Assembly (NCBI RefSeq): GCF_022524345.1
Contig: NZ_JAKWJU010000002.1
Coordinates: 5,818,001 to 5,882,000 of the forward strand
DNA from: Streptomyces marispadix
GTDB taxonomy: Bacteria > Actinomycetota > Actinomycetes > Streptomycetales > Streptomycetaceae
DNA: 64,000 nt
Direction: 5' to 3'
Under the pieces are notes generated by a model that was given only the letters and a program-made list of their open reading frames with translations, did not search any database and was not told the DNA's origin. Shown here piece after piece: positions 1 to 13,726 of this stretch. How positions within the stretch are numbered: position 1 is the stretch's first letter; every line of letters begins with the position of its first letter. The position numbers and the translations under genes were made by a program.

Positions 1-3000
1 GCCAGAACTCGCCCGTCACATCGCCCTCGTACTTGTAGCCGCCGCCGGGCGTCAGCGCCGCCCAGCCGCCGGGGACGCCGATCAGCGTGGCGCGCGGCGC
101 GGGGGCGACCCGGCCCCCGGTCTGCGCCCCGGCGTCCTCTCCGTCCTCTCCGGGCTCTCCGTGCTGCTCCTCGTCACCGGTGAGGGACCACAGCCGTACC
201 GTGCCGTCCTCGCCGCCGCTGGCGAGCTGCGAGCCGTCCGGGCTGAAGGCGAGCGCATGGACCCGCCCCGTGTGGCCCGTCAGACGCGCGGTCAACTCGC
301 CGCTGTCCGCGTCCCACAGGCGGATCGCACGGTCGTCGCCCGCGGTCGCGAGCAGCGGCAGCCGCGGGTGTGCCGCCGCGGTCCACAGCCGTCCGTGATG
401 CCCGCGCAGGACGTGCCGCTGTCTGCCGCCCTCCCAGATCACGGCCGTACCGTCCCAGGACGCGCTCAGCACCGAGGTGCCGCCGCGGCAGAAGGTGACG
501 GCGTACACGCGGTCGGAGTGGCCCTCGAGTTCGGCGATGAGACGTCCTGTGCGCGGCTCCCACAGCCGTACCAGGCTGTCGTCGCAGCCGGTGGCGAGGA
601 CTTCGTCGTCGTCGCGGAAGGCGATGGAGCGCACCCGGCCCCGGTGCAGCTCCAGGGTCGTGACATGTGCCCCGGTGCTGCGCCACCACAGCCGTACGGT
701 GTCGTCGTCGTTGGCGGTGGCGAGCAGTTCGCCGTCGCCGCTGAACGCCTCGGCCCACGTGTGGTCGGTCTCGACGTCGATCTCGCGCAGATACTCGCCG
801 TCGGCGGCGTTCCACAGGTAGACGTCGCCGTCGTTGCTGGCGGTGCCCAGCACCGGGCCCGCCGGGCTGAAGACCGCGGAGACCAACCGGTCGCCGCGGC
901 CCGCCAGTTCGGCGGTGCGGCGGCCCGTGCGCGCGTCCCACATCCGCACTATGCCGTCGTTGCCGCCGGTGGCCATGCGGGTCCCGTCGGCGCTGAAGGC
1001 GAGCGTGTTGACGCGGCGCCCATGGCCGCGCAGGATGCGCCTGCCCTGGCCCGTACCGGCGTCCCAGATCTGTGCGCCGCCGTCGTTGCCCACGGTCAGA
1101 AGCTGCCGGTCCTGGGGGCGGAAGGCGCAGGCCCATGCCGAGCCCCGGTGCTCGACGGGCTGCTGCGGCAGCAGCGACACCCGCGCCCCTGCGGCGCCGT
1201 CGGAGGAGGCCACCCGCCACATCCGTACGGTGCCGTCGCTGTCGCAGGCGGCGAGCAGCCTGCCCTCGTCGCCGAAGAGCACCTGGTAGACGGCGCCGGT
1301 GCAGCGCTCAAGCGACCCGGCGGCACTGCCGGAACGCGGATCCCACAGCCGCACCTGGCCGTCGGTGTCGCCGCTGACGAGCAGACCGCCGCCGGGATGG
1401 AAGTCGAGGGTGTAGACGGGACCGGAGTGACCGGTGAACTCATGCAGCGCGGCGGGCTCTTCGCCGCTGCCGCCGCCGGTGCCCCTGCCCTCGGTGAGGG
1501 CGCCCGTGTCCCAGACGCGTACCATGCCACGGCCGTCCTCGCCGCGGTCGCCGGTGGCCAGCAGGCTGCCGTCCGGGCTGAACCTCGCGCGGTACACCGC
1601 CCCCCGGTGTGCGCGCAGTTCACGCAGGCAGTGCCCGGTGCGGGTGTCCCAGACCCGCAGGCCCGCCCCGGCGTCCCCCGTGACGAGGGTGTGCCCGTCG
1701 GGGCTGAAGACGGCCGTGTAGACGGGCGCGGTGTGTCCCGGCAGGCGGTGCACGGGCGTGCCGTCGGCCACGTCCCAGAGGGTCACCAGCCCCTCGGCGT
1801 CTCCGGTGGCCAGCAGCCGTCCCGAGGCGTCGAGGGAGACCGGCCACACACCGTCCGGGTGGACCTCGATCCGGTGCAGGCAGCGGCCCGACACCGGGTC
1901 CCACAGCCGTACTTCGCCGTCGGCAGCGCCCGTCGCCAGCACGTTCGCCCGGAACTTCACGGCGTAGACGCGGCCTTCGTGCCCGTGCAGCGTACGGGCT
2001 GCCCTGCCGGTGTCCGCGGCGCAGACCAGCACGCCGCCGTCCTCGCTGCCCACGGCGAGTAGTTCGCCCTCGGGGCTGTAGGAGATGGGCTCGGGCAGCC
2101 GGCTGGTACGCATGTCGAAGCCGTAAGGCACCCCGACCGCCGAGGGACGCAGCCCCGCCTCGACCGGCATGCCCGGCGCGACCGAGGCCGTGGCCAGCTC
2201 GGGCGCCGACTGCTGCGGGCCGTCGGTGACGGCGTCGACGAGAGCGGCCCGATTCCACCTGCTGCCCGCCAGACAGGCGCCGCGAAGATCGGTACGTACG
2301 AGCCGGGCGCGGCGCAGATCGGCGCCCGTGAGGTCCGCTTCGGAGAGGTCGGCCTCGTCGAGCCGTGCACCGACGAGGCGGGCGTCGCGAAGCACCGCAC
2401 CGGAGAGATTGGTGCCCAGCAGCCGGGCGTCGGTCAGGTCGGCACCGCTGAGGTCCACACCGGAGAAGTCACGGGCCGAGAGGTCCTCGCCGATGAGGCG
2501 GGCGCCGCGCAGATCGGCGTCGGCGGGCACCCGCAGCCGGTCGGTGATCCGTACGGCGTTGGCGCGTGCGGCCTCGCTCGTGCCGGGCCCGGGGGCGTTG
2601 AGCATGCCCTGCACCCACGCGGTGCAGCGCGCATGGTCGGCGAGGTCGCAGAAGAACTCCACGGCGAGCTGCGTCAGCGGACGAGCGGAGAGCAATGTGC
2701 TGTCGCCGCGGGCGAGTTGGGCCGCCGCCTCGCGTGCGACGAGCCATTCGACGACGGAGCCGTGGATGAACTGGAACAGCCCGTCCTCCGTGCGTACCAG
2801 GAGGCTGCCCGCGCCGACGGCCTGCGCGCTCTCCAGGTTGGACATGGTGCTGCTGCCCGCGAGTCCGCTGAGGGTGTCCGCGACGGTCTCGGTCAGCTCG
2901 TCGAGTCGCAGCGCGCTGCGCCCGCTCTCCCACAGCCGCTGTGCGAGCGCGGTCACGGCGGCCCACAGATGCTCCGTGCTCAGGCCGGGCGCTGCGCCGG

Positions 3001-5881
3001 GCCCGCCCTGGCCCCGGCGCTCTTCGAATGCGAGCCACGCGCTGAAGACGTCCTCGTAGAGACCGGCGGGGCTCAGGGCGCGCCCGGCACCGGCCACCGC
3101 GCGAAGCTGCTCCGGCGCCAGGTCCGCCACGAAGCTCAGCAGGCGCGGATTGGCGCACAGCTCCAGCAGGTCGGGGATGTTGCGCAGCATGCGGAAGCGT
3201 TCGTCCGCGACGGCCTCGTCGCCGTAGCGGTTGACGAGGTAGTTGCGGATCTGCGCCGGTACGAAGCCCTCCAGGGACAGCACGCGCCGCCGCGGCAGCA
3301 TCCCCACGCGTTCGCCCAGCGCCGTGAGGATCTGCGCCTGCGACTTGAAGTGCTGGGTGCGGCTGCTGACGACGATCTTGGCGTTGTCGACGGACGCGTC
3401 GAGGAGGACCTGGAGGTGGTCGGCGGCACGGTCGTAGCTGACGCGGTTGACGAGTTCGTCGAAGCCGTCGAAGAGCAGCACCACCCGGCCCTGCCCGAGC
3501 ATGTAGCGCAGCGCTCGCAGGTCGATGGTGTCGACGCCGTGCCCGGCCAGATGCGCGGCGACGAGCCCTTCGAGGCTGTGCGCACGGTCGAGCGTGTTGA
3601 GGGGGATGAGCAACGGCGTGAGATGGGGGAGCTGTTCGGGGATGCGCCGGGCCAACTCCCGCAGCGCGAAGGTCTTTCCATGGCCGAAGTCGCCGAGCAG
3701 CAGTATGAAGCGGCCGTGGTCCGCGGCGAGCAGGTCGAGCATGTTCTCCACGAGCCCGTCGCGTTCCTCGCCGTCGGGGCGTTCGGCGTCGCGGTAGCGC
3801 CCGGGGAGATAGAGCCCGGGAGGGTAGCGCCCGTCGGCGGCGAGCCTGGCGGTCTGCGCCTCGACGTATGCACGGAGGTCGAGCAGGCCCTGGAACTGAA
3901 GGAAGCTGCGCACCCGGATGCCTCGGCGGCTCGCACGCTCCCTCAACTCCCGTTCCGGCGCGGGGCCTTCGTGGACGATCTCCGCCTCGGAACCGGTGTC
4001 GGTGGCGTGCGCCTGCGCGATGAAGCGTTCGACGTCGTCCTCTGTGGGCGTGCCGGGGTGTACGGCGATGCGCTGCTGCCGTACCACCCCCTCCTCGTGC
4101 CAGGTGGCCATGATCTGCGGCATGTCGCCCGGGTCGCGGCGGGGCACGTCACGCAGCCGTACGCCCTCCCGTCGCGCCCGGCACACCTCGCGTACCCGCT
4201 CCACGAGGGAGTCGGCGGGCTCGTCGAGGGGCCGGTTGTCGCTGTCGTCCTCGGACGCGGCAGCGGCGGGCAGCGGCGCGGCCGTCTCCTCGGGCACGGC
4301 GAAGATCCGCTGAGCGGCGCGCCATTCGAGGGGGAACTCCCTCGGTTCGGCGCCTGCCTCGTCCGTCCAGCGTGTGATGCCGCCCGCGCCGACCCGCAGC
4401 AGCTCGCAGCGGGCCGGTGCCGCCGAGCCGAAGAGCGGCAACTCGCCCGCGGGCGTGCTCAGTTCGCCGTACGACGGCTCGGAGGAGGTGGTGCGCGGGC
4501 CTCCCGTGGGGCCGTGCAGCACGAAGTGCAGACGGCGGGCGGTGAGCCTGGCGAAGGTGTCGGCGTCGCGCAGCGGGCCCGGGCCGCCGGGCGCGTCGCC
4601 CGGCCGTTGCCGCCCCTCGGTGAGGGGATGGCGCAGCACGCCGATGCGCAGCCAGCCCTCGTCCTCGTAGGTGCGCAGCGCCTCGGAGAACCATGTGGCC
4701 TGATCGCGGCCGAGGAAGCCGTACTGGTCGTCGGTGCGGTGGCTGAAGGCGATGGAGGAGTTGAACCCGGCGACGACGGTGTGCAGTTCGGGCACGGGGA
4801 AGAGAGTCCAGGGCTGGTCGCTCTCGAAGACCGTGTCCATCCCGTGGTACAGGCCCCTGAACAGGCGTGTGTAGTGGCGCCACTTGGGCCAGTACGGAGG
4901 CTGCGGCGGCACCTCGTCGGCCTCGCAGGTGTGGAAGTAGCCCAGGCAGGCGGCCTGGCTGACGTCCTGCGTGCCCGGTACGACGACCAACCGCTGTGGA
5001 GGCAGGTCGAGTTGGGAGCGCAGCCCGGTGAGGAAGCTCAGGGCCTGGTCGCATTCGCGTGGACTGCCCGAGGCGGTGAGATCGCCGGAGACGACGAGGA
5101 GATCGGGGGCGGGAGCGCCCGCGTCCTTCAGCTCCACCAGGTCGCTCCACATCTCCCGCAGCAGCGACTCCGGTTCACGGCCCCGGCCGAAGTTGGGGCC
5201 CGCCACGTGCAGTACGGACAGGGCCTCCTGCGGCCCGCTTCCGCCGGGCGCCGCCGGATAGTGCGGAGCCCTGGCGGGACGGCGGCGCCCCGGCCAGCCC
5301 GTACGGCCCAACGGGCGCGGCCCGTCGCCCTGTTGGGCCTCCACCGGCACAGGCACCTCATCATGAGGCGTACGCGGCCCCGGCACACCGGAGAGCGCGG
5401 AGCCGCCCGGGTAGCCGGGACGCAGCCCCGGCCGGGCATGGCCCTCGACGGCCTGGCCGACGCGGGTGAGCAGCATGCTGCGTGCCGTCTCCGTGTCGGT
5501 CACGCCCACCAGGTCGACATAGGTGATCGTGGCGAGCAGCCCCTCGATGGGGATGTCCTCCACGCGCACGGTCAGCAACTTCCGCTCCGGGGCCTCCGGT
5601 TCGGCGCGCAGCGCGGCCTGCCACTCCATGCGCCCGTACGTGGAACGCCCGTAGTGGCTGGAGAGCACGGCGATGACGGCCACGGACTCGCTGACGCCCC
5701 GGTCCATGAAGTCGATGAAGTTCGTGCCCGGCACGAAGTCCCACGCCTGGATCACCGTGCGGTAGCCGGCCTCCTCCAGCGTCCAGGCGATCCACGAGGC
5801 CCACTGCTCGTCCGCGGGGGAGTAGCTGATGAAGAAGTCCAAGTCCCGCGTGTGCGCTGCCAGTTCCCCGTTGTCCGTCAT
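1..5881 (-). CDS. TIR - pseudo-metallophosphoesterase - NACHT - pentapeptide - WD40 protein (3' end outside window)
   Basis: The reading frame is open from ATG at 5881 to the window edge (at least 1960 residues). Order: TIR domain at about 15-150 (FFISYSPADEQW; Glu86 in GRMEW sits where the conserved TIR glutamate is expected), closely resembling TIR domains of streptomycete FxSxx-system proteins; a calcineurin-phosphoesterase fold at about 222-465 with most metal ligands replaced; NACHT NTPase with Walker A GDFGHGKT at 730-737 and Walker B LLFDGFDE near 803-810; helical region; pentapeptide repeats at about 1125-1205 (ADLTDARLLG type); about 15 WD40 repeats from about 1255 to 1910, enough for two propellers; then a tail (GGGYKYEGD) that continues off the window. 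This is the layout of a bacterial NLR-like sensor: repeats sense, NACHT oligomerises, TIR may consume NAD. A defence role is inference. No Shine-Dalgarno is visible; TACGAT lies 7 nt upstream, so a leaderless transcript is possible. Confidence 0.9.
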   Translation of the reverse strand, partial: MTDNGELAAHTRDLDFFISYSPADEQWASWIAWTLEEAGYRTVIQAWDFVPGTNFIDFMDRGVSESVAVIAVLSSHYGRSTYGRMEWQAALRAEPEAPERKLLTVRVEDIPIEGLLATITYVDLVGVTDTETARSMLLTRVGQAVEGHARPGLRPGYPGGSALSGVPGPRTPHDEVPVPVEAQQGDGPRPLGRTGWPGRRRPARAPHYPAAPGGSGPQEALSVLHVAGPNFGRGREPESLLREMWSDLVELKDAGAPAPDLLVVSGDLTASGSPRECDQALSFLTGLRSQLDLPPQRLVVVPGTQDVSQAACLGYFHTCEADEVPPQPPYWPKWRHYTRLFRGLYHGMDTVFESDQPWTLFPVPELHTVVAGFNSSIAFSHRTDDQYGFLGRDQATWFSEALRTYEDEGWLRIGVLRHPLTEGRQRPGDAPGGPGPLRDADTFARLTARRLHFVLHGPTGGPRTTSSEPSYGELSTPAGELPLFGSAAPARCELLRVGAGGITRWTDEAGAEPREFPLEWRAAQRIFAVPEETAAPLPAAAASEDDSDNRPLDEPADSLVERVREVCRARREGVRLRDVPRRDPGDMPQIMATWHEEGVVRQQRIAVHPGTPTEDDVERFIAQAHATDTGSEAEIVHEGPAPERELRERASRRGIRVRSFLQFQGLLDLRAYVEAQTARLAADGRYPPGLYLPGRYRDAERPDGEERDGLVENMLDLLAADHGRFILLLGDFGHGKTFALRELARRIPEQLPHLTPLLIPLNTLDRAHSLEGLVAAHLAGHGVDTIDLRALRYMLGQGRVVLLFDGFDELVNRVSYDRAADHLQVLLDASVDNAKIVVSSRTQHFKSQAQILTALGERVGMLPRRRVLSLEGFVPAQIRNYLVNRYGDEAVADERFRMLRNIPDLLELCANPRLLSFVADLAPEQLRAVAGAGRALSPAGLYEDVFSAWLAFEERRGQGGPGAAPGLSTEHLWAAVTALAQRLWESGRSALRLDELTETVADTLSGLAGSSTMSNLESAQAVGAGSLLVRTEDGLFQFIHGSVVEWLVAREAAAQLARGDSTLLSARPLTQLAVEFFCDLADHARCTAWVQGMLNAPGPGTSEAARANAVRITDRLRVPADADLRGARLIGEDLSARDFSGVDLSGADLTDARLLGTNLSGAVLRDARLVGARLDEADLSEADLTGADLRRARLVRTDLRGACLAGSRWNRAALVDAVTDGPQQSAPELATASVAPGMPVEAGLRPSAVGVPYGFDMRTSRLPEPISYSPEGELLAVGSEDGGVLVCAADTGRAARTLHGHEGRVYAVKFRANVLATGAADGEVRLWDPVSGRCLHRIEVHPDGVWPVSLDASGRLLATGDAEGLVTLWDVADGTPVHRLPGHTAPVYTAVFSPDGHTLVTGDAGAGLRVWDTRTGHCLRELRAHRGAVYRARFSPDGSLLATGDRGEDGRGMVRVWDTGALTEGRGTGGGSGEEPAALHEFTGHSGPVYTLDFHPGGGLLVSGDTDGQVRLWDPRSGSAAGSLERCTGAVYQVLFGDEGRLLAACDSDGTVRMWRVASSDGAAGARVSLLPQQPVEHRGSAWACAFRPQDRQLLTVGNDGGAQIWDAGTGQGRRILRGHGRRVNTLAFSADGTRMATGGNDGIVRMWDARTGRRTAELAGRGDRLVSAVFSPAGPVLGTASNDGDVYLWNAADGEYLREIDVETDHTWAEAFSGDGELLATANDDDTVRLWWRSTGAHVTTLELHRGRVRSIAFRDDDEVLATGCDDSLVRLWEPRTGRLIAELEGHSDRVYAVTFCRGGTSVLSASWDGTAVIWEGGRQRHVLRGHHGRLWTAAAHPRLPLLATAGDDRAIRLWDADSGELTARLTGHTGRVHALAFSPDGSQLASGGEDGTVRLWSLTGDEEQHGEPGEDGEDAGAQTGGRVAPAPRATLIGVPGGWAALTPGGGYKYEGDVTGEFW

Positions 5882-5974
5882 GGGGGCATCGTAGGTTCCG
5901 CGGCACAGGACGGGCATCTCGGGTACGACAGGCAGCGACCTGCCCCTCACATCGTGTGTGCGATTCTGTCGGAC

Positions 5975-7162
5975 GTGCGAATCGTGAAGAGTGTGCATCC
6001 GCTGGACTGGCTGGCCGCCGGGCTGCTCGTCTGCGGGCTCCTGCTGGTGGCCACCGGACTGCTGCCCACGGGTCCCGCCGGGGACGCGATGACCCGCATC
6101 GGGCCGCTGCTCGTCTTCCTCGCCACGGCCATCGTCCTCGCCGAACTCACCGGCAGGGCCCAGGTGTTCGACGCCGTCGCCGCATGGGTCGCGCGCACCG
6201 GCAAGGGCAGCTATCCGCTGCTGTTCGGGCTGTGCGTGCTCTTCGCGTCCGTCACCACGATCACGCTCAACCTCGACACCACGGCCGTGCTGCTCACTCC
6301 CGTGATGCTCGCCCTCTCCACCCGTGTGGGCATCGCGGCCGTGCCGCTTGCCATGACGACCGTGTGGCTGGCGAACACCGCGAGCCTGCTGCTGCCCGTC
6401 TCCAACCTGACCAATCTGCTCGCGGCCGACCGTGTCGCGCTGTCGCCCGTCGAGATGGCGGCCACCATGTGGCTGCCCCAACTCGCCTCGATCCTGGTGA
6501 CGATGGCGTGCCTGTGGGGCTTCTACTGGCGGCGCGGGAGGCGCGGCTCGGAGAGCTACATACCCCCGCAGCCGCTGCGCCCAGCCGACCCCGTGGTCTT
6601 CCGGGTTTGCGCGCTCGCGTGCGTGGGGTTCCTGGTGGCGATCCTCGTCGCCGACATGCCGCTGTGGTGGGCTTCCACGGCTGCGGCGCTCGTCGTCGTC
6701 GGAGTGTTCGCGCTCAGGCGGAGATCGGAGCTGCGGCTGTCGCTCATCCCATGGCGGCTGATGATGCTGGTGCCCGGGATGTTCCTCGTCGTGGAGACGG
6801 TCAACGCCAACGGCCTGCACGACGTGCTCACCGCGGCCGTCGGCTCCGACGGCGGACTGCTCGGCATGCTCCGCTCGGCGGGCGTCGGCGCGGGCCTGTC
6901 CAACGTGCTCAACAACCTCCCCGCCTACCTCGCGGGAGAGGCGGCCGTGCCCGTCGAGAACAAGCACCAGCTGCTCGCGCTGCTCATCGGCACCAACGTC
7001 GGCCCGCTGGTGACCCCTTGGGCGTCACTGGCGACCCTGCTGTGGTTCGAGCGCTGCCGCACGCACGGCACGCGCATCCCGCTGCGGCGCTTCATGGCGA
7101 CGGGCCTCGTGCTCGCCGTGACGGCGACGCTGGCGGCGACCGTCCAACTCGCCCTCGTCTGA
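5975..7162 (+). CDS. ArsB/NhaD/SLC13-type permease
   Basis: An integral membrane protein of about 395 residues with about ten hydrophobic segments. It shows features of the ion-transporter superfamily (SLC13, ArsB, NhaD, CitM): TLNLDTTAVLLTPVMLAL, SNLTNLLA and GTNVGPLVTPWASLATLLWF. These segments occur as two related halves, as expected for the inverted-repeat fold. The substrate (dicarboxylate, arsenite or a cation) cannot be read from sequence; no arsR or arsC lies nearby. GTG at 5975 is chosen because coding bias begins there; GTG at 5954 and 5984 are alternatives and none has a convincing ribosome site. It is divergent from the TIR-NACHT gene across 93 bp. The same frame remains open far upstream, but only as antisense to that gene. 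Confidence 0.8.
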   Translation: MRIVKSVHPLDWLAAGLLVCGLLLVATGLLPTGPAGDAMTRIGPLLVFLATAIVLAELTGRAQVFDAVAAWVARTGKGSYPLLFGLCVLFASVTTITLNLDTTAVLLTPVMLALSTRVGIAAVPLAMTTVWLANTASLLLPVSNLTNLLAADRVALSPVEMAATMWLPQLASILVTMACLWGFYWRRGRRGSESYIPPQPLRPADPVVFRVCALACVGFLVAILVADMPLWWASTAAALVVVGVFALRRRSELRLSLIPWRLMMLVPGMFLVVETVNANGLHDVLTAAVGSDGGLLGMLRSAGVGAGLSNVLNNLPAYLAGEAAVPVENKHQLLALLIGTNVGPLVTPWASLATLLWFERCRTHGTRIPLRRFMATGLVLAVTATLAATVQLALV

Positions 7163-7213
7163 CGGCGTTCGGCCGGGGCGTTCCATGCGAGCCCGGCCCG
7201 CGTGCCCGCCGTC

Positions 7214-8203
7214 TCAGGGCGCCGCCGCGGAGACGAGGTCCACCAGATGCGGAAGCGTCTCCCCGCGTGCCGCGACGAAACTGCGCCCCGAGTCCGGCCC
7301 GTCGAAGCCCACTTGGAACGCGCCGCCCGCCAACGTACGGAATTCCACGCCCGCTTCGGCCGCCAGCAGCGCCCCGGCCGGGAAGTCGATGCCCTCCGCC
7401 CGGTAGCCGACGTACCCGTCGATGGTGCCGCTCGCCAGCATCGTCCAGCCCAACAGCGGTGCCCAGAGCTGGAGTACGCGCCGCGAGTGCAGCTCCAGCG
7501 TGCCGCGCAGCGCCAGCGCACGGGCATCGCCGCGGCTCACCGCATGGCCCTGCGTCCACGCCAGTACGGGCCCCGAGCGCGGAAGCCGCCCGCAGGGGCC
7601 CTCCAGTCGCGCCGAACCGCACCACGTGCCCTGCCCGAGGGCGGCGCGCCACGTACGTCCCGTCACCGGCTCGTGCACCACGCCTACGACGGGCGAGCCG
7701 TCCACGCACAGGGCGATCCCGACCGCGTAGGCGGTGAGCCCTATCGCGACGTTGTTGCTGCCGTCCAGCGGGTCGACCAGCCATGTACGGCTGCCCTGCG
7801 CGTCGAGCAGCCCGGCCTCCTCGGAGACGATGCGCTCGTGCGGGAAGTGCGTGCGCAGCCGGTCGAGTACGACCTTCTCCGCCGCCAGATCCAGATCGGT
7901 GACGACGTCGCCGCCGTCGCCCTTGCTGCGTACGGTGTGCGCCTGCCGGAATCCGGCGCGCAGCAGCGCACCGGCCTCCTCGGCGGCCTCGACGGCCACC
8001 TTCTGCTCGTAGGAGTACGAACCGGCGTCCGGGGCGGCGCCTCCGGGCGTGCCGGTGTGCCCGTCGCCGTCCGCGTCGCCGCGTGTGCCGGGCTGCTCGC
8101 CGGTGCTCGACTCGGCCTGTGCGCCTGCTCGTTCGCCGGACCGCCCGCCGGTGGTCTCGCCCGCCCGTTCCGCCCCGCCCGTCTCACTCCGGTCTTCCTG
8201 CAT
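7214..8203 (-). CDS. Inositol monophosphatase family protein with long hydrophilic N-terminus
   Basis: A 329-residue Mg-dependent phosphatase of the IMPase/FBPase-like fold. Visible motifs are the metal-binding EE pair (IVSEEAG, near residue 129), WLVDPLDGSNN (near 145) and the C-terminal GIDFPAGALLAAEAG, which replaces the usual WDxAAG and is slightly divergent. Residues 1-65 are Gly/Glu/Asp/Thr-rich, probably disordered and not part of the fold. The ATG at 8203 overlaps the 3' end of the cupin-like gene by 20 bp, implying translational coupling in an operon with the two genes upstream. The substrate could be an inositol phosphate, histidinol phosphate, PAP or NADP; sequence alone does not decide. 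A second, different IMPase lies at 19185-20003. Confidence 0.85.
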   Translation of the reverse strand: MQEDRSETGGAERAGETTGGRSGERAGAQAESSTGEQPGTRGDADGDGHTGTPGGAAPDAGSYSYEQKVAVEAAEEAGALLRAGFRQAHTVRSKGDGGDVVTDLDLAAEKVVLDRLRTHFPHERIVSEEAGLLDAQGSRTWLVDPLDGSNNVAIGLTAYAVGIALCVDGSPVVGVVHEPVTGRTWRAALGQGTWCGSARLEGPCGRLPRSGPVLAWTQGHAVSRGDARALALRGTLELHSRRVLQLWAPLLGWTMLASGTIDGYVGYRAEGIDFPAGALLAAEAGVEFRTLAGGAFQVGFDGPDSGRSFVAARGETLPHLVDLVSAAAP

Positions 8204-8864
8204 GGACCCTCCTCAGCGCCGCCCGCACGGTCCTTCGGGTGTCTTCTGCCCCGCAGAGCCGCCGCACAGTGCGGTGACCGCCGCCTTCCAGCGGTCCGAG
8301 GAAGAGATCGGTGCGTCCCGGCAGCGTCCTGCCCAGCACCAGGGTGGCGGCGGGCTCGCCCCGCTTGACGACGGTCGAGTGGAACTCTCCCGCCGCCAGC
8401 GTGTACGTCTCACCGCCGCCGCTGGTCTCCTCGGGACCCGGCTCACTGCGTACGAGACGCCGGGTGGGCCGCAGTTCGTCGGTGCCGTCCGGGGTGCTGT
8501 GCACCTCGAAGACACGGTGGGTGGGGCCGGGCGCGGGCGCGGGTGCCGGATCGGCCACCCGCACCGGCACGTTGGAGACGTGCCCGTAGAGAACGTGGCT
8601 GAGCAGTTCCCAACTGTGGGCGTGCACACCGGACTCCGCGGGCCGCCGCCCGGCCGTCGCCGCCCCGTCGAAGAGATGGACGCACACTCCGCGTCCGCCC
8701 TCCCGCACCACGGGCAGACACAGGAATCCCAGCGGATGCAGCACCGCACGCAACTCCCGCTCGCCGGAGGCGATCTCACCGAGTACGCCGGCGACGGCCT
8801 CGCGCGGCGCGGCCGTCGTGGGCCCTCCGCTGCGCAGTGCGTCTTCGAGCTCGTCGTAGTCCAT
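8184..8864 (-). CDS. Cupin-like protein of unknown function
   Basis: About 226 residues with beta-rich character. A histidine-containing segment (VHAHSWELLSHVLYGH) and a later AGEFHSTVV resemble the two histidine motifs of a cupin barrel, so a metal-binding small-molecule enzyme or sensor is plausible, but no named family is recognised. ATG at 8864 is chosen, with GGAGG 17 nt upstream; an in-frame GTG at 8882 overlaps the stop of the preceding gene and is the alternative. Its 3' end overlaps the IMPase start by 20 bp and its 5' end abuts the two-TM protein gene, so the three appear co-translated. Confidence 0.7.
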   Translation of the reverse strand: MDYDELEDALRSGGPTTAAPREAVAGVLGEIASGERELRAVLHPLGFLCLPVVREGGRGVCVHLFDGAATAGRRPAESGVHAHSWELLSHVLYGHVSNVPVRVADPAPAPAPGPTHRVFEVHSTPDGTDELRPTRRLVRSEPGPEETSGGGETYTLAAGEFHSTVVKRGEPAATLVLGRTLPGRTDLFLGPLEGGGHRTVRRLCGAEDTRRTVRAALRRVHAGRPE

Positions 8865-8878
8865 GGCGGCGGCGGGGG

Positions 8879-9829
8879 TCACCTCCGGTAGGGGTCGTCG
8901 GCGTGGAGCGCCTTGTCAATGATCTCGCCGACGTCCCCGTCGGTGAAGACGGAGGGGAGCGGAAGGCTCAAATGGTCGAAAACCGCCCGTACTTCGTCGA
9001 CGGTCGGCTCGTCGCTCAGCGGCGGCAGCGCATGCAGGTCGAGCCGCTCGGCCTGCTCCCTGCTCTGGTGCAGCTCGGTGACGTAGTAGTCGTAGAGCGG
9101 CTGGTCACGGGCGACGAGCAGGTTGACGCGATTGGGGTCGTCCTGCGTGATGACAAGGCAGGATTCGGACAGGTCGAAGCGGAGAGTCGGCACGCCGGAG
9201 GAGAGGTGGACGCTGATCTCCAGGGTGTCCAGCCGCTGCCTGTACCAGCAGGCGGCCAGCACCGTCGCATACGACTCCTTGCGGGTACGGGTCGTCGTCC
9301 AGGCGTTGGCCGCCTCGGTGTTGCGCTGCCGTGCGAAGGTCTGCCGGAAGCGCGCGTAGTCCGAACAGGTCTTCTCGCTGCCGGGGTTGATGATGTCGAT
9401 CTTGATGCTGAGCGGCGTGCGCTGCCGGGTCGCCGCCTCGACACAGCGCGGCAGCGTCACCGCACGCAGATAGGTGCCCGTACCGCCCTTGAAGTACCAG
9501 CGGTTGGTCTGCTCCCGTGCCTTGCTCAGCGCCTCGCCGACCTCGCTGCCCGACAGGGAGCGCACCATCGCCAGATCCTCAAGGGCGCGGCGGGTGTCCG
9601 CCGACACCTCCTGGATGTCCGAACGGCGGCGCACACGCTCGGTCATGGAACCCACCGCGAGCGCGCCGAGCACCAGCAGCGTCGCCCCCGACGAGACGTC
9701 CTCGCTGACGACCTCTCCGAAGACGTCGAGGAACCCGATCGTCAGGCCGAGCCCTACGGCGATGACGACGTCCAGGTTCCTGATGACCCAGCCGATGCCG
9801 GACTCCAGACGTCCGGGACGCTGTGCCAC
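8879..9829 (-). CDS. Two-TM membrane protein with unknown cytosolic domain
   Basis: 316 residues. Two hydrophobic segments lie near residues 18-36 and 44-60, then about 250 residues of soluble alpha/beta sequence. A conspicuous element is NRWYFKGGTGTYLRAVTLP followed by IKIDIINPGSEKTCSDYARFR, which reads like a nucleotide- or lipid-phosphate-binding loop plus strand, but I cannot assign a family. GTG at 9829 is chosen because GGGGAGGGG lies 7 nt upstream; ATG at 9859 has no ribosome site. It is the first gene of the coupled trio with the cupin-like protein and the IMPase, and lies 121 bp downstream of the SpoIIE phosphatase gene on the same strand. Confidence 0.7.
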   Translation of the reverse strand: MAQRPGRLESGIGWVIRNLDVVIAVGLGLTIGFLDVFGEVVSEDVSSGATLLVLGALAVGSMTERVRRRSDIQEVSADTRRALEDLAMVRSLSGSEVGEALSKAREQTNRWYFKGGTGTYLRAVTLPRCVEAATRQRTPLSIKIDIINPGSEKTCSDYARFRQTFARQRNTEAANAWTTTRTRKESYATVLAACWYRQRLDTLEISVHLSSGVPTLRFDLSESCLVITQDDPNRVNLLVARDQPLYDYYVTELHQSREQAERLDLHALPPLSDEPTVDEVRAVFDHLSLPLPSVFTDGDVGEIIDKALHADDPYRR

Positions 9830-9950
9830 GAAACCACCCCTCCCCGTGATGACCAGCATCGTAGGAGGAGCGGCGGGCGGCCCGCCAGGCGGGTCCGCTC
9901 CGGGGGACGGCCCCGCGCCGCGCCCGGACGGGCCGTCAACCGGCCGCGGC

Positions 9951-11243
9951 TTACGAGGAGTTCTTGAAGTCCAGGCAGAGCGCCGTCGCGTCGTCGCGCG
10001 GATCGTGGCCCTGGTCGGCCAGTACGGAACGGGTGAACGCCTGCACCGCCTCACGAGGGTGCTCGGAGGCGGTCGCCTCCAGCAGGCGGCGCAGACTGCG
10101 GTCCTCCTGCGTCGGCTCCAGCATGCCGTCGGTGAGCAGGAGGAGCCGGTCGCCGGGGCGCAGATCGAGGCTCTGAAGGCGATAACCGGACTCCGGAAGG
10201 ATTCCGAAGGGGATGTCCACGAGCGGGGTGAGCTGTTCCGCTCTGCCGTCGCGCAGCCGCAGCGGAAACTGGTGCCCGGCGTTGACGAAGGCGTTCTCCC
10301 CGGTATCGAAGCCGATCCACATGAGCTGCCCGGTGACCATGGCCTGCGCACCGTGCTCGGCCAGCGCGCCGCGCACCTGCTCGGTCTGTTCGGTCACGGC
10401 GTCGTGCTCCTGCACGGCGTGCTCCACGACGGCCTGGTTGGCCGCCCTGGCCTGGTCGATCAGGCCCTGGCCCGTGCGGCGGGCGTTGCGCAGCGCGGCG
10501 ACCACCACCGTGGCGAGCTGCGCCGCCCGTACGTCGTGGCCCATGGCATCGGTGAGGGACACGGTGATGCCGTTCTCGCCCAGCGCGTAGTCGAACGTGT
10601 CACCGCCGACCTGCGCGGCGGGCTCCAGCGAACCGGCGAGGGTGACCGGGCCCGCCTCGCACGTGTACGACTCCGGCAGCAGCTGATGCTGTATCTCGGA
10701 GGCCAGCGACATCGGAGTGGTGCGCCGCCCCCACTCGTAGAGGTCGGTGAAGCGCCTGTTGACGATCACGACATAGGCGAGGGCGTGTGCGGCCTCGGTC
10801 ATGTGGTCGAGCTGTGCGCGGTCGGGCGGCTCTGGCAGCGTCAGCTCCAGCAGCCCGATGGCGTCACCGCGGTGGGTGACCGGTGCGATGACCTTGGTCA
10901 GCCCGGAGTGCGGCTCCGACTGCTGCGCGGGTCCATGCGACAGGACGCCCATGGCGTCGACCGCTTCGAATTCCAGGGACCCGATCCAGGGCCGCTGCGA
11001 GCGGACCACGTGCCCGTAGACGGTCCCGGCGAGCGCCAGCGGCTTCGGCCCGTCCCCGCTCGCGACGTTGTCCCCGGTCAGCCGGACGACGGCCTTGCCG
11101 CCGAGGTCCGTGATCAGGAAGGACACGTCGACCGCCTGGAACTCCCGCTGGAGTATCCGCGCGAGCACGGCCACCGATCTCACCGGCCGCTCGATCTCCA
11201 CGGCGGACAGCAGCTCGGCCACCCAAGCACGCCGGTCACCCAT
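9951..11243 (-). CDS. PP2C-type SpoIIE-family serine/threonine phosphatase with GAF-like N-terminus
   Basis: 430 residues. The first 170 or so look like a GAF-type sensory domain (FLITDLGGKAVVRL, IGLLELTLP). From about 180 a SpoIIE/PP2C domain follows: ASEIQHQLLP, VGGDTFDYAL, LTDAMGHDVRAAQLA, NAGHQFPLRLRDG, LLLLTDGMLEP and the closing DDATALCLD, carrying the expected metal-binding aspartates. Family members dephosphorylate anti-sigma-factor antagonists in partner-switching pathways. No anti-sigma or STAS gene is adjacent, so its partner is elsewhere. ATG at 11243 begins MGDRRAW. Upstream is a 358-bp divergent intergenic region. Confidence 0.88.
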   Translation of the reverse strand: MGDRRAWVAELLSAVEIERPVRSVAVLARILQREFQAVDVSFLITDLGGKAVVRLTGDNVASGDGPKPLALAGTVYGHVVRSQRPWIGSLEFEAVDAMGVLSHGPAQQSEPHSGLTKVIAPVTHRGDAIGLLELTLPEPPDRAQLDHMTEAAHALAYVVIVNRRFTDLYEWGRRTTPMSLASEIQHQLLPESYTCEAGPVTLAGSLEPAAQVGGDTFDYALGENGITVSLTDAMGHDVRAAQLATVVVAALRNARRTGQGLIDQARAANQAVVEHAVQEHDAVTEQTEQVRGALAEHGAQAMVTGQLMWIGFDTGENAFVNAGHQFPLRLRDGRAEQLTPLVDIPFGILPESGYRLQSLDLRPGDRLLLLTDGMLEPTQEDRSLRRLLEATASEHPREAVQAFTRSVLADQGHDPRDDATALCLDFKNSS

Positions 11244-11601: not shown

Positions 11602-12732
11602 ATGCCCGACGTCTCACCGTCCGCGCTCGACAGCGCCATCGCCGCCGTGCCCGCGGAGCGGTTCCTCGGCGTGGACGGCCGTGCCGTACGCCCCTGCACG
11701 CCCCCCGACGTCACCTACCGCCATCTGCACATGCTCGACGTCCCACCGGGAGCGAACGTCCTGGACGTCGGCCTCGGTTCGGGACTCTCCGCAGCGCTGC
11801 TCGCCCGACTGGCCGGTCCCGGCGGGCAGGTGACCGCCGTCGAGATCGATCCGCGGCTGGCCGCGCGTGCCAAGACCCTCTACGGCGAGCACGCCCACCG
11901 GGTGGGTGTCGTCGTGGGCGACGGGCTCCCCGGCCACCCTCCTTGTGCGCCCTACGACCGCATACTCGCGGGCGTCACCCCGCCCGCCGTACCTGACGTC
12001 TGGCTGCGCCAACTCAAGCCGGGCGGCGTGCTGTTGTGCGGTGTACGCATCAGCGGCCTGCCCGGCGGCCATGCCATCGCCCGTATCACCGCCCGTGCCA
12101 CCGGCCCCGGCCCCGGCCCCGGCCCCGGCCCCGGCCCCGGCCCCGGCCCCGGCCCCGGCCCCGGCCCCGGCCCCGGTACCGGCACCGGCACCGGCCCCGA
12201 CGAACGGCACGACCCGTACCAAGTCACCGTCCACCAGGGCGGATACATGCCGATGACCGTCCCTGAAGGGTGGGCGGACGTCGGCGGGGACGCCGTCACA
12301 CGCGCCTCCGACCCCGAACGGCCGCAGTGCTCACTGACCCTCCTCGGCGCCCACGACCCCGCCACCGCCGCCGCACTGTGCGCCGCGCTCACCTCCGCCC
12401 CGCACATCGAGGCCGCTCCCGTGACGGGCGGCGACTGGCACCACTTGAAGAACTGGCTCATGGCCACCGCCCCCGACGGGCTGCTCGAAGCGACCCTCGA
12501 CCAGGGCACGGGCGTCGGCATCGGTCTCACCGGACCGGACGGCGCGCAACACGCCGCGCTGGTCACGGGTTTCGACCTCATCGCCGACGACGCGGACTCG
12601 CCCGCCCTCGAATCGCTCACCGGCCTGATCCGCCGCTGGCGGGCCCTCGGCGCTCTCCGTACGCACGAACTGCCCGCACGGGCGCACCGCGAGGGCGACG
12701 TGTGGCACATACGGTTCGAAGCCGGGGAATGA
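11602..12732 (+). CDS. Protein-L-isoaspartate O-methyltransferase-like SAM methyltransferase with Gly-Pro repeat
   Basis: 376 residues. The N-terminal 170 form a Rossmann SAM-methyltransferase: motif I VLDVGLGSG at residues 53-61, then VTAVEID, and LKPGGVLLCGV. The overall pattern is PCMT-like, but the usual isoaspartyl-binding segment before motif I is replaced by RPCTPPDVTYRHLHM, so the acceptor substrate may differ. Residues 168-199 are a run of GP/GT dipeptides encoded by a hexanucleotide repeat. The following C-terminal domain of about 175 residues (QCSLTLLGAHDP, GDWHHLKNWLMA) is not a family I recognise; similar two-domain methyltransferases modify peptides in some actinobacterial RiPP loci, but no precursor gene is visible here. 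ATG at 11602 has AGGA 7 nt upstream. Confidence 0.8.
   Translation: MPDVSPSALDSAIAAVPAERFLGVDGRAVRPCTPPDVTYRHLHMLDVPPGANVLDVGLGSGLSAALLARLAGPGGQVTAVEIDPRLAARAKTLYGEHAHRVGVVVGDGLPGHPPCAPYDRILAGVTPPAVPDVWLRQLKPGGVLLCGVRISGLPGGHAIARITARATGPGPGPGPGPGPGPGPGPGPGPGPGTGTGTGPDERHDPYQVTVHQGGYMPMTVPEGWADVGGDAVTRASDPERPQCSLTLLGAHDPATAAALCAALTSAPHIEAAPVTGGDWHHLKNWLMATAPDGLLEATLDQGTGVGIGLTGPDGAQHAALVTGFDLIADDADSPALESLTGLIRRWRALGALRTHELPARAHREGDVWHIRFEAGE
12103..12198 (+). repeat. (GGCCCC)n hexanucleotide repeat inside a coding sequence
   Basis: Twelve perfect GGCCCC units (12103-12174) are followed by GGTACC, GGCACC, GGCACC and GGCCCC, all in frame, encoding Gly-Pro then Gly-Thr dipeptides in the PCMT-like protein. 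Unit gain or loss keeps the frame, so the linker length can vary without inactivating the protein. Confidence 0.97.
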
Positions 12733-12925: not shown

Positions 12926-13726
12926 TCAGTCCGTGTGCAGCCGCTCCAGCAGCGCGGGCAGCGCCTCGCCGATCGGTTCCCGCACGACCTCGGACGCCAA
13001 CTCGTCATACGGCGTGGGCTCGGCGTTGACGATGACGAGACGCGCGCCGTGCTCCACGGCGATCCCCGCGAGCGACGCCGCGGGCTGCACCTGTAGCGAC
13101 GTACCCACCGCCACGAAGACGTCGCACGCCTTCGCCACGGCGACCGCCCGGCCCAGCACGTCCGGATCGAGGGCCTGTCCGAACATCACCGTCGCCGACT
13201 TCAGGATGCCCCCGCACTCCAGACAGGCCGGATCCTCCTCGCCCGCCTCGACCCGCTCCAGCGCCTCCGCCATCGGGCCCCCGGCCTCGCACCGCGTACA
13301 GACCACGGATCGTGAACTGCCGTGCAGTTCCAGCACCTTGCGGTCGGGCAGGCCCGCGAGCTGGTGGAGTCCGTCGACGTTCTGTGTGATGACGCGCACC
13401 GGCCTGCCGGACCTCTCCAGCTCCGCGACGGCCTCGTGCGCGGCGTTGGGCCGTGCCTTCCAGGTGGGGCTGGTGCGCCGCATCTGCCATGACCTGCGGC
13501 GGATGTCCGGGTCGTTCATGTAGTAGTCGTAGGTGACGAGCTTCTCCGCCTCCGGATCGCTGCGCCAAAGCCCTTGCGGGCCGCGGTAGTCGGGGATGCC
13601 GGAGTCCGTGGAGATCCCGGCACCGCTGAGGATCGCGACGAGCGGGCCACGGGGCGAGGAGGCGCCCGGCGTCTCCGGCGCGGGCTCGGCGGAGGGGCGG
13701 GGCGCGGGCTCGGGGGAGGCGGTCAT
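12926..13726 (-). CDS. Sir2-family NAD-dependent protein deacylase (sirtuin)
   Basis: 266 residues. Signatures in order: GAGISTDSGIPDYRG (NAD binding), TQNVDGLHQLAG, catalytic histidine in ELHGSSR, a zinc finger with CTRC and CLEC cysteine pairs, and GTSLQVQPAASL. A full-size sirtuin that removes acyl groups from protein lysines using NAD. ATG at 13726 starts a Pro/Ala/Ser-rich leader of about 25 residues; a later start is possible. Its 3' end converges with the PCMT-like gene across 193 bp, where no obvious terminator is seen. Confidence 0.92.
   Translation of the reverse strand: MTASPEPAPRPSAEPAPETPGASSPRGPLVAILSGAGISTDSGIPDYRGPQGLWRSDPEAEKLVTYDYYMNDPDIRRRSWQMRRTSPTWKARPNAAHEAVAELERSGRPVRVITQNVDGLHQLAGLPDRKVLELHGSSRSVVCTRCEAGGPMAEALERVEAGEEDPACLECGGILKSATVMFGQALDPDVLGRAVAVAKACDVFVAVGTSLQVQPAASLAGIAVEHGARLVIVNAEPTPYDELASEVVREPIGEALPALLERLHTD

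Follow-up and report, generated by a model that had tools for sequence, protein, structure and literature searches.

At the left end of a 64,000-nucleotide stretch of Streptomyces marispadix DNA (the window; G000:C2:5818001-5882000, within a 6.7 Mb genome) lies an NLR-like gene whose domain plan resembles that of plant and animal immune receptors. We investigated what such a receptor may do in a bacterium, how its series of domains may have arisen, and whether it stands alone. The part of the answer that is new here is that the receptor travels together with four linked genes that had gone unnoticed.

The receptor gene and its domains

The preliminary description reported a single open frame of at least 1960 codons, and the frame is indeed intact: in contiguous genome DNA (L008) it runs on the minus strand from an ATG at 5881 to a stop that ends 89 bases left of base 1 (1..5881 within the window), giving 1989 codons including the part outside. 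This uninterrupted frame rules out a disrupted gene for the window receptor. All five parts named earlier (TIR, phosphoesterase fold, NACHT, pentapeptide and WD40) are present, and a sixth that had not been listed, NA-iREase3, lies between the phosphoesterase fold and NACHT. The non-catalytic domain proposed between the TIR and the NTPase is therefore in fact two, a decayed phosphoesterase and an inactive REase fold, and the layout from the N terminus reads TIR, pseudo-phosphoesterase, NA-iREase3, NACHT, pentapeptide repeats, WD40 and tail.

All of these domains are encoded on the minus strand. The TIR domain (5480..5836, residues 16-134; Pfam TIR_2, E = 9e-34) carries a candidate catalytic residue, Glu86 (5624-5626), which we take to be the catalytic glutamate of TIR NADases; a glutamate stands there in 75/75 rows having the region in an 81-row alignment of the query and 80 related loci (six rows are without the region). 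It is followed by a metallophosphoesterase fold without the full metal-binding set (4322..5218, residues about 222-520) and by NA-iREase3 (3875..4213, residues 557-669; PF22739, E = 3e-36, 125 bits against a cut-off of 27), which Pfam describes as a "NACHT-associated inactive restriction endonuclease". The NACHT NTPase (3230..3712, residues 724-884, E = 3e-10) has the motifs GDFGHGKT and LLFDGFDE, so the Walker A and B motifs are intact as first described. They are also conserved: the Walker A lysine is present in 81/81 rows (GDFG[HR]GKT in 76, GNFG or GEFG in 5), and all 81 have an identical Walker B. Downstream are pentapeptide repeats (2228..2521, residues about 1121-1218, NCBIfam matches), a WD40 beta-propeller region (182..2086, residues about 1266-1900, 14 matched stretches) and a conserved C-terminal tail (1..94, residues about 1930-1989, extending outside the window), for which Pfam gave no family match except where the final WD40 repeat ends (E = 0.18). 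NACHT, with both Walker motifs intact, thus lies between an N-terminal effector and C-terminal repeats as in NLR-like/STAND proteins, and the Pfam domains and conserved motifs bear out the proposed NLR-type layout with a candidate catalytic TIR.

Mean identity to the query among the Streptosporangiales rows was 71% for TIR, NACHT and pentapeptide repeats alike, 56% for WD40, 51% for the phosphoesterase and 46% for NA-iREase3. The presumed sensor is not hypervariable: mean identity was 71-73% for its pentapeptide region and 56-67% for WD40, compared with 71-77% for NACHT. Tandem Repeats Finder detected no recent WD40 repeat copies in the corresponding DNA (L008 11900-14700).

The receptor family and its four linked genes

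A protein search with residues 200-1130 returned at least 788 homologous clusters at E ≤ 1e-10 (7982 candidates scored), which rules out a lone exotic protein and, together with the domain E-values, excludes chance. The best 120 of the 788 clusters are 1735-2023 aa long and share 61-92% identity, and those with a name belong to Streptomyces, Kitasatospora and Embleya; other named relatives are from Actinomadura, Streptosporangium, Microbispora and kin. The preliminary description knew of no described system with exactly this order; the layout is that of a conserved family, and Pfam already models its NACHT-associated module. In Streptomyces the receptor is patchy (at least 10 of 151 genomes), and phosphoesterase-iREase relatives occur in at least 32 of 393 genomes of the class and at least 34 of 121 genomes of the family to which genome G164 belongs; these counts are lower bounds because only some of the first-look candidates were scored. 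Among the wider relatives are records named from Solirubrobacteraceae and from Thermoanaerobaculia metagenome bins. Plasmid carriage was rejected, the single match in a plasmid collection being an 11.85 Mb Nonomuraea replicon. In one single-contig genome (G004), a receptor relative falls into two frames near residue 693 (L123, about 2964-8866), and the cassette genes still adjoin it. The source genome has seven NACHT matches altogether, three of them (L001, L002 and L005; G000:C2:3845915-3852531) in separate frames on one strand within 7 kb.

Next to the receptor gene and divergent from it is a CitMHS/ArsB-type (SLC13-like) anion transporter (5954..7162, plus strand, GTG start assumed; CitMHS E = 3e-30, ArsB E = 3e-25). 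Three minus-strand genes follow, overlapping by 4 and 20 bases in the window in an operon-like manner. An inositol-monophosphatase-family phosphatase (7214..8203; Inositol_P E = 2e-39) has the motif DPLDGSNN, and DPxDG is found in 72/73 loci. The next protein (8184..8882), without a Pfam, NCBIfam or PDB match, is presumably cupin-like, a label we gave it from its HxH...H motif, the metal-binding set of cupins; the three His are invariant in 22/22 rows. The last is a membrane protein with a PLD-like fold (8879..9859), whose model has N-terminal helices of low confidence and then a domain mostly above pLDDT 85 that resembles phosphatidylserine synthase and SauUSI (best E = 4e-4; TM-scores of 0.31-0.36 by query length among the first 16 matches). 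The phospholipase D motif is HxKxxxxD, and this HKD motif was found neither in the window's protein nor in any of 71 aligned segments from the loci. Searches of the PDB with the partner sequences gave nothing useful. As a set, the partner families look metabolic or transport-related rather than effector-like.

Out of 220 encoding places detected in a scan of named genomes we retained 80, assigned by record titles and known taxonomy to Streptomycetaceae (52) and Streptosporangiales (28). A simple gene caller applied to these 80 loci revealed the four genes upstream of the receptor, and we then used tblastn with the window's own partners; 73 loci have enough flank, the others being lost to contig edges (L025, L031, L043, L051, L063, L089 and L091). 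The transporter is present in 73/73 loci, the phosphatase in 73/73 (a fragment in L070), the cupin-like gene in 72/73 (missing in L070) and the PLD-like gene in 71/73 (missing in L069 and L070), and gene order is identical in 71/71 loci having all five; the gap between phosphatase and transporter exceeds 1 kb, up to 6.1 kb, in 9/73. That close relatives keep the same four neighbours suggests a multi-gene module rather than a lone protein. Two further neighbours were considered: a SpoIIE-type gene (9951-11222) was rejected as an extra partner (1/80 loci), and a Sir2-like gene about 3 kb from the cassette (12926-13726) recurs in 3/80 loci, near kin only, and is probably a coincidence.

We fetched 18 stretches surrounding other, in part more distant, relatives. 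The usual five-gene order is found in L148 and L149. L147 also carries the five genes, its phosphatase and transporter lying about 12 kb apart, and in L141 and L143, from the family of the Frankia genome G354, all five are present but reordered, the transporter (31-33% identical) following the receptor. L139 has the cupin-like gene and transporter only, L146 and L142 (which starts at a contig end) the transporter only, and no partner was found in 10 of the 18 (L136-L138, L140, L144, L145 and L150-L153), several of which end near contig edges. Among the 393 genomes of the class, 18 had both a receptor relative and a PLD-like gene, 14 a receptor relative only and 4 a PLD-like gene only; the two genes are megabases apart in G354 and on different contigs in G371. 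The five genes are strongly linked in Streptomycetaceae and Streptosporangiales but only weakly outside these groups.

Partners also occur apart from the receptor. Among the 151 Streptomyces genomes, the PLD-like protein was found in the 10 receptor genomes and G047, and the cupin-like protein in the same 10, G047 and G002; in G047 and G002 the cupin-like gene overlaps a membrane-protein gene, which in G047 is the PLD-like relative. The transporter was found in 20 of the 151 genomes, the 10 with the receptor and 10 others (65-80% identical in the latter), which gave no receptor, PLD-like or cupin-like match genome-wide and no other cassette part within the 3.1-19 kb fetched. Because partners occur separately in receptor-less Streptomyces genomes, the parts of the cassette can be recruited, and the transporter is tied to the receptor less exclusively than the PLD-like and cupin-like genes are. 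In other Streptomyces, a membrane protein with an overlapping cupin-like gene occurs without a receptor in L121 (9313-10921) and L122 (9094-10751), the L122 membrane protein having no tblastn match to the PLD-like partner; two sirtuin-like stretches near the two-gene unit of L121 (14571-16960) are probably a coincidence. In the two transporter stretches that were annotated, the transporter adjoins a glutamate-synthase-like pair (L158 8818-10008, L160 8869-10116).

The outer surroundings differ between the two groups. In Streptosporangiales a coaE-like gene lies downstream in 25/28 loci and a uvrB-like gene upstream in 24/28 (both names being our reading of the sequences), and most of these loci occupy one housekeeping site; in Streptomycetaceae no outer gene family recurs in more than 14/52 loci. 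No clear defence island was seen when nine neighbour proteins (the four partners and five others) were compared with PADLOC-DB of 2023. The sole match, of a methyltransferase-like gene (11602-12732) to mad2 (E = 2e-20 over 116 residues), is taken as a putative shared methyltransferase fold. The product of this gene contains an in-frame Gly-Pro repeat run.

The phosphoesterase fold and the history of the effector

The phosphoesterase region had no Pfam match, either among the best 25 of 65 families for the whole protein or for the N-terminal 560 residues. NCBIfam DS9_1 (NF053862), an anti-phage phosphoesterase, aligned with residues 258-465 (E = 2e-12, 46.5 bits against a cut-off of 420). In an AlphaFold model of residues 205-690 (mean pLDDT 77), the predicted fold matched the PDB calcineurin-like phosphoesterases Lmo2642, Rv0805 and GpdQ with a Foldseek probability of 1.00, and the restriction enzyme MspJI at rank 46 (E = 2e-3). 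These matches support a predicted metallophosphoesterase fold at residues ~222-520.

The metal ligands of metallophosphoesterases follow the consensus DxH, GD, GNH, H and GHxH. Against this consensus, the receptor's motif set is incomplete for an active enzyme. In the 81-row alignment, the motif I Asp, the motif I His and the motif III Asn-His were found in 0/78 gap-free rows, and both motif V His in 1/78 by the first scoring. We then took the query, the 80 loci and proteins P0001-P0120 as the window's group (196 gap-free rows, 180 distinct); the motif I Asp, the motif III Asn-His and the final His of HGHxH each occur in 0/196. The motif II Asp (180/196) and motif IV His (196/196) persist, as they might in an enzyme with an unusual metal site, but the complete absence of the other three makes continued catalysis very improbable.

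The ligands are kept elsewhere in the family. A Frankia relative (L150, named Frankia sp. QA3), in which no TIR was detected, retains the ligand motifs, with Gln for the motif I His. A search with its protein gave 340 proteins at E ≤ 1e-20, and among the best 120 listed, 67 have a trypsin-like domain by BLAST assignment. We collected 339 proteins and aligned 338; the tree omits F_L147 as too short. The motif I Asp is present in 67/67 trypsin-fused gap-free rows, in 28/28 wider rows with no N-terminal domain detected and the fold starting within 120 residues (some of them partial records), in 16/27 wider TIR-fused rows and in 2/3 rows with an unassigned longer N terminus, the third being F_L149, which has a TIR. 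By a two-site rule, the phosphoesterase is intact in 13/224 TIR-fused, 66/67 trypsin-fused and 30/37 other proteins. The decayed rows include 1/67 trypsin-fused and 7/37 without a detected N-terminal domain; six of these seven either come from the window's list or begin at, or close to, the end of a contig or record (N_L025, P0005, N_L043, N_L063, P0108 and F_L142), and the seventh is F_L149, whose TIR was overlooked by the position filter. In the trypsin-fused relatives, Gln or Arg replaces the motif I His and the other ligands are mostly intact; since no gap-free row has the motif I His, even the "intact" members have a variant metal site.

By these counts ligand loss goes with the TIR, as a pattern rather than a test because the rows are related and the tree is midpoint-rooted. 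On this tree, parsimony puts the losses of the phosphoesterase set at four and its regains at three; since such regains are implausible, the count of losses is uncertain. With its ligands lost in the window's group and kept in trypsin-fused relatives, the phosphoesterase looks like an old effector that decayed, and one reading of the alignment is that the TIR took over its role. Replacement of the effector may then be traced through a series of NLR proteins with an intact phosphoesterase alone, with trypsin and with TIR, to a decayed one with TIR.

A proposed function and its alternatives

We think it somewhat probable that the receptor is the centre of a five-gene module of conflict type (immunity or programmed cell death) built around a single-protein NLR. 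To judge from its sequence, the module is most likely of the NLR type and NAD-depleting, serving defence or cell death. The activities, trigger and partner roles that we infer would be as follows. The C-terminal WD40 propellers and pentapeptide helix would keep the receptor off until a trigger is sensed, whereupon NACHT would exchange nucleotide and oligomerise. Oligomerisation would cluster the TIR domains, which could then degrade NAD+ via Glu86, and the hypha would be killed or arrested. The ancestral phosphoesterase would have been the effector before key metal ligands were lost in the window's group, and its fold and the inactive REase fold would now probably separate TIR from NACHT as a spacer or act there as a regulatory arm. 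The four linked genes may belong to the same pathway, either watched by the receptor or handling a small molecule.

Arguing for such a module are the invariant TIR glutamate, Walker A lysine and Walker B; the linkage of the partners (73, 73, 72 and 71 of 73 loci) in constant order, with all five together even in L141 and L143; and the near confinement of the PLD-like and cupin-like genes to receptor genomes among the 151 Streptomyces. According to PMC12169576, bacterial NACHT proteins defend against phages, which also speaks for it, and the decayed effector within the module is favoured by the Foldseek-supported fold and the ligand loss in the window's group. Against the module count the lack of a clear defence island together with the housekeeping site of most Streptosporangiales loci, a sensor part that is not fast-evolving, partner families that look metabolic, the looser link in distant relatives (393 genomes; G354 and G371), a transporter in 10 receptor-less Streptomyces genomes, and phosphatase-transporter gaps of more than 1 kb in 9/73 loci and about 12 kb in L147. 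If it holds, a one-gene curiosity becomes a testable five-gene system in which two proteins have no match in the families searched.

The main rival is a developmental role: in actinomycetes that grow as filaments and sporulate, the receptor would regulate development or programmed cell death in response to an internal state rather than to phage. Its slowly evolving sensor and the stable uvrB-like/coaE-like site in most of the 28 Streptosporangiales loci agree with this, as do the named relatives (Streptomyces, Kitasatospora, Embleya, Actinomadura, Streptosporangium, Microbispora and kin), all of which we take to be filamentous actinomycetes. So does the statement in PMC7159879 that related NTP-driven conflict systems are preponderant in multicellular prokaryotes. 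However, the receptor was found in only 10/151 Streptomyces genomes, with 34/121 in the family of G164, and so is not needed for the life cycle; the records named from Solirubrobacteraceae and Thermoanaerobaculia bins also weigh against a developmental role, which we regard as unlikely while ranking it foremost among the alternatives. A second possibility, also unlikely, concerns what the receptor senses: it might guard its own metabolic "bait" or signal-making unit, formed by the four partners, so that interference by phage or stress would free a TIR NADase that had replaced the phosphoesterase within the chain. The partner set, looking metabolic or transport-related rather than effector-like, suggests this guarding, and what PMC12169576 states of bNACHT25, namely a requirement for the host's DnaJ chaperone and possible guarding of a host process, makes it plausible for a slowly evolving sensor. 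Such guarding, if real, would be a bacterial counterpart to the guard model of plant immunity, here with the guarded component encoded by the adjoining genes.

Still more doubtful is a stand-alone receptor whose neighbours are linked merely through block inheritance of the locus. The 10 of 18 diverged stretches without a partner (several ending near contig edges) point that way, as do the PLD-like and cupin-like pair in L121, the cupin-like gene with another membrane protein in L122, the transporter alone in 10 genomes and the PLD-like gene without a receptor relative in 4/393. Yet the linkage is kept between Streptomycetaceae and Streptosporangiales despite different outer flanks, it outlasts reordering in L141 and L143, and in the window three of the partner genes overlap as in an operon.

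Several known proteins resemble the receptor in part. The anti-phage bNACHT proteins are likewise single large proteins with a central NACHT between sensor and effector and intact Walker motifs, whereas the receptor has a TIR and two non-catalytic domains upstream, pentapeptide and WD40 repeats downstream, and four linked genes; phage defence is reported for bNACHT, while the receptor is known from its sequence. Proteins of the order trypsin-like, phosphoesterase, NA-iREase3, NACHT, pentapeptide and WD40, mostly named from actinomycetes, are homologous to it from phosphoesterase to NACHT, but have a trypsin-like peptidase in place of the TIR at the N terminus and mostly intact phosphoesterase ligands where the receptor's are lost. 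DS9_1 likewise has a phosphoesterase region alignable with the receptor's, in which key ligands are missing. In the available parts of PMC8195603 and PMC7159879, STAND NTPase conflict proteins share a constant NTPase with exchangeable TIR or calcineurin effectors, there as alternatives and here both in series, and in that of PMC10907252 a DGR-diversified protein combines phosphodiesterase and NACHT domains in one chain. These parts of the three papers describe neither TIR and calcineurin in series nor this cassette. The literature searched, with incomplete coverage and hence no proof of novelty, contained no anti-phage test of the receptor family and no description of the five-gene cassette. 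NCBIfam EruA gives the receptor only a weak score (E = 3e-5; 22.5 bits, with a cut-off of 1000).
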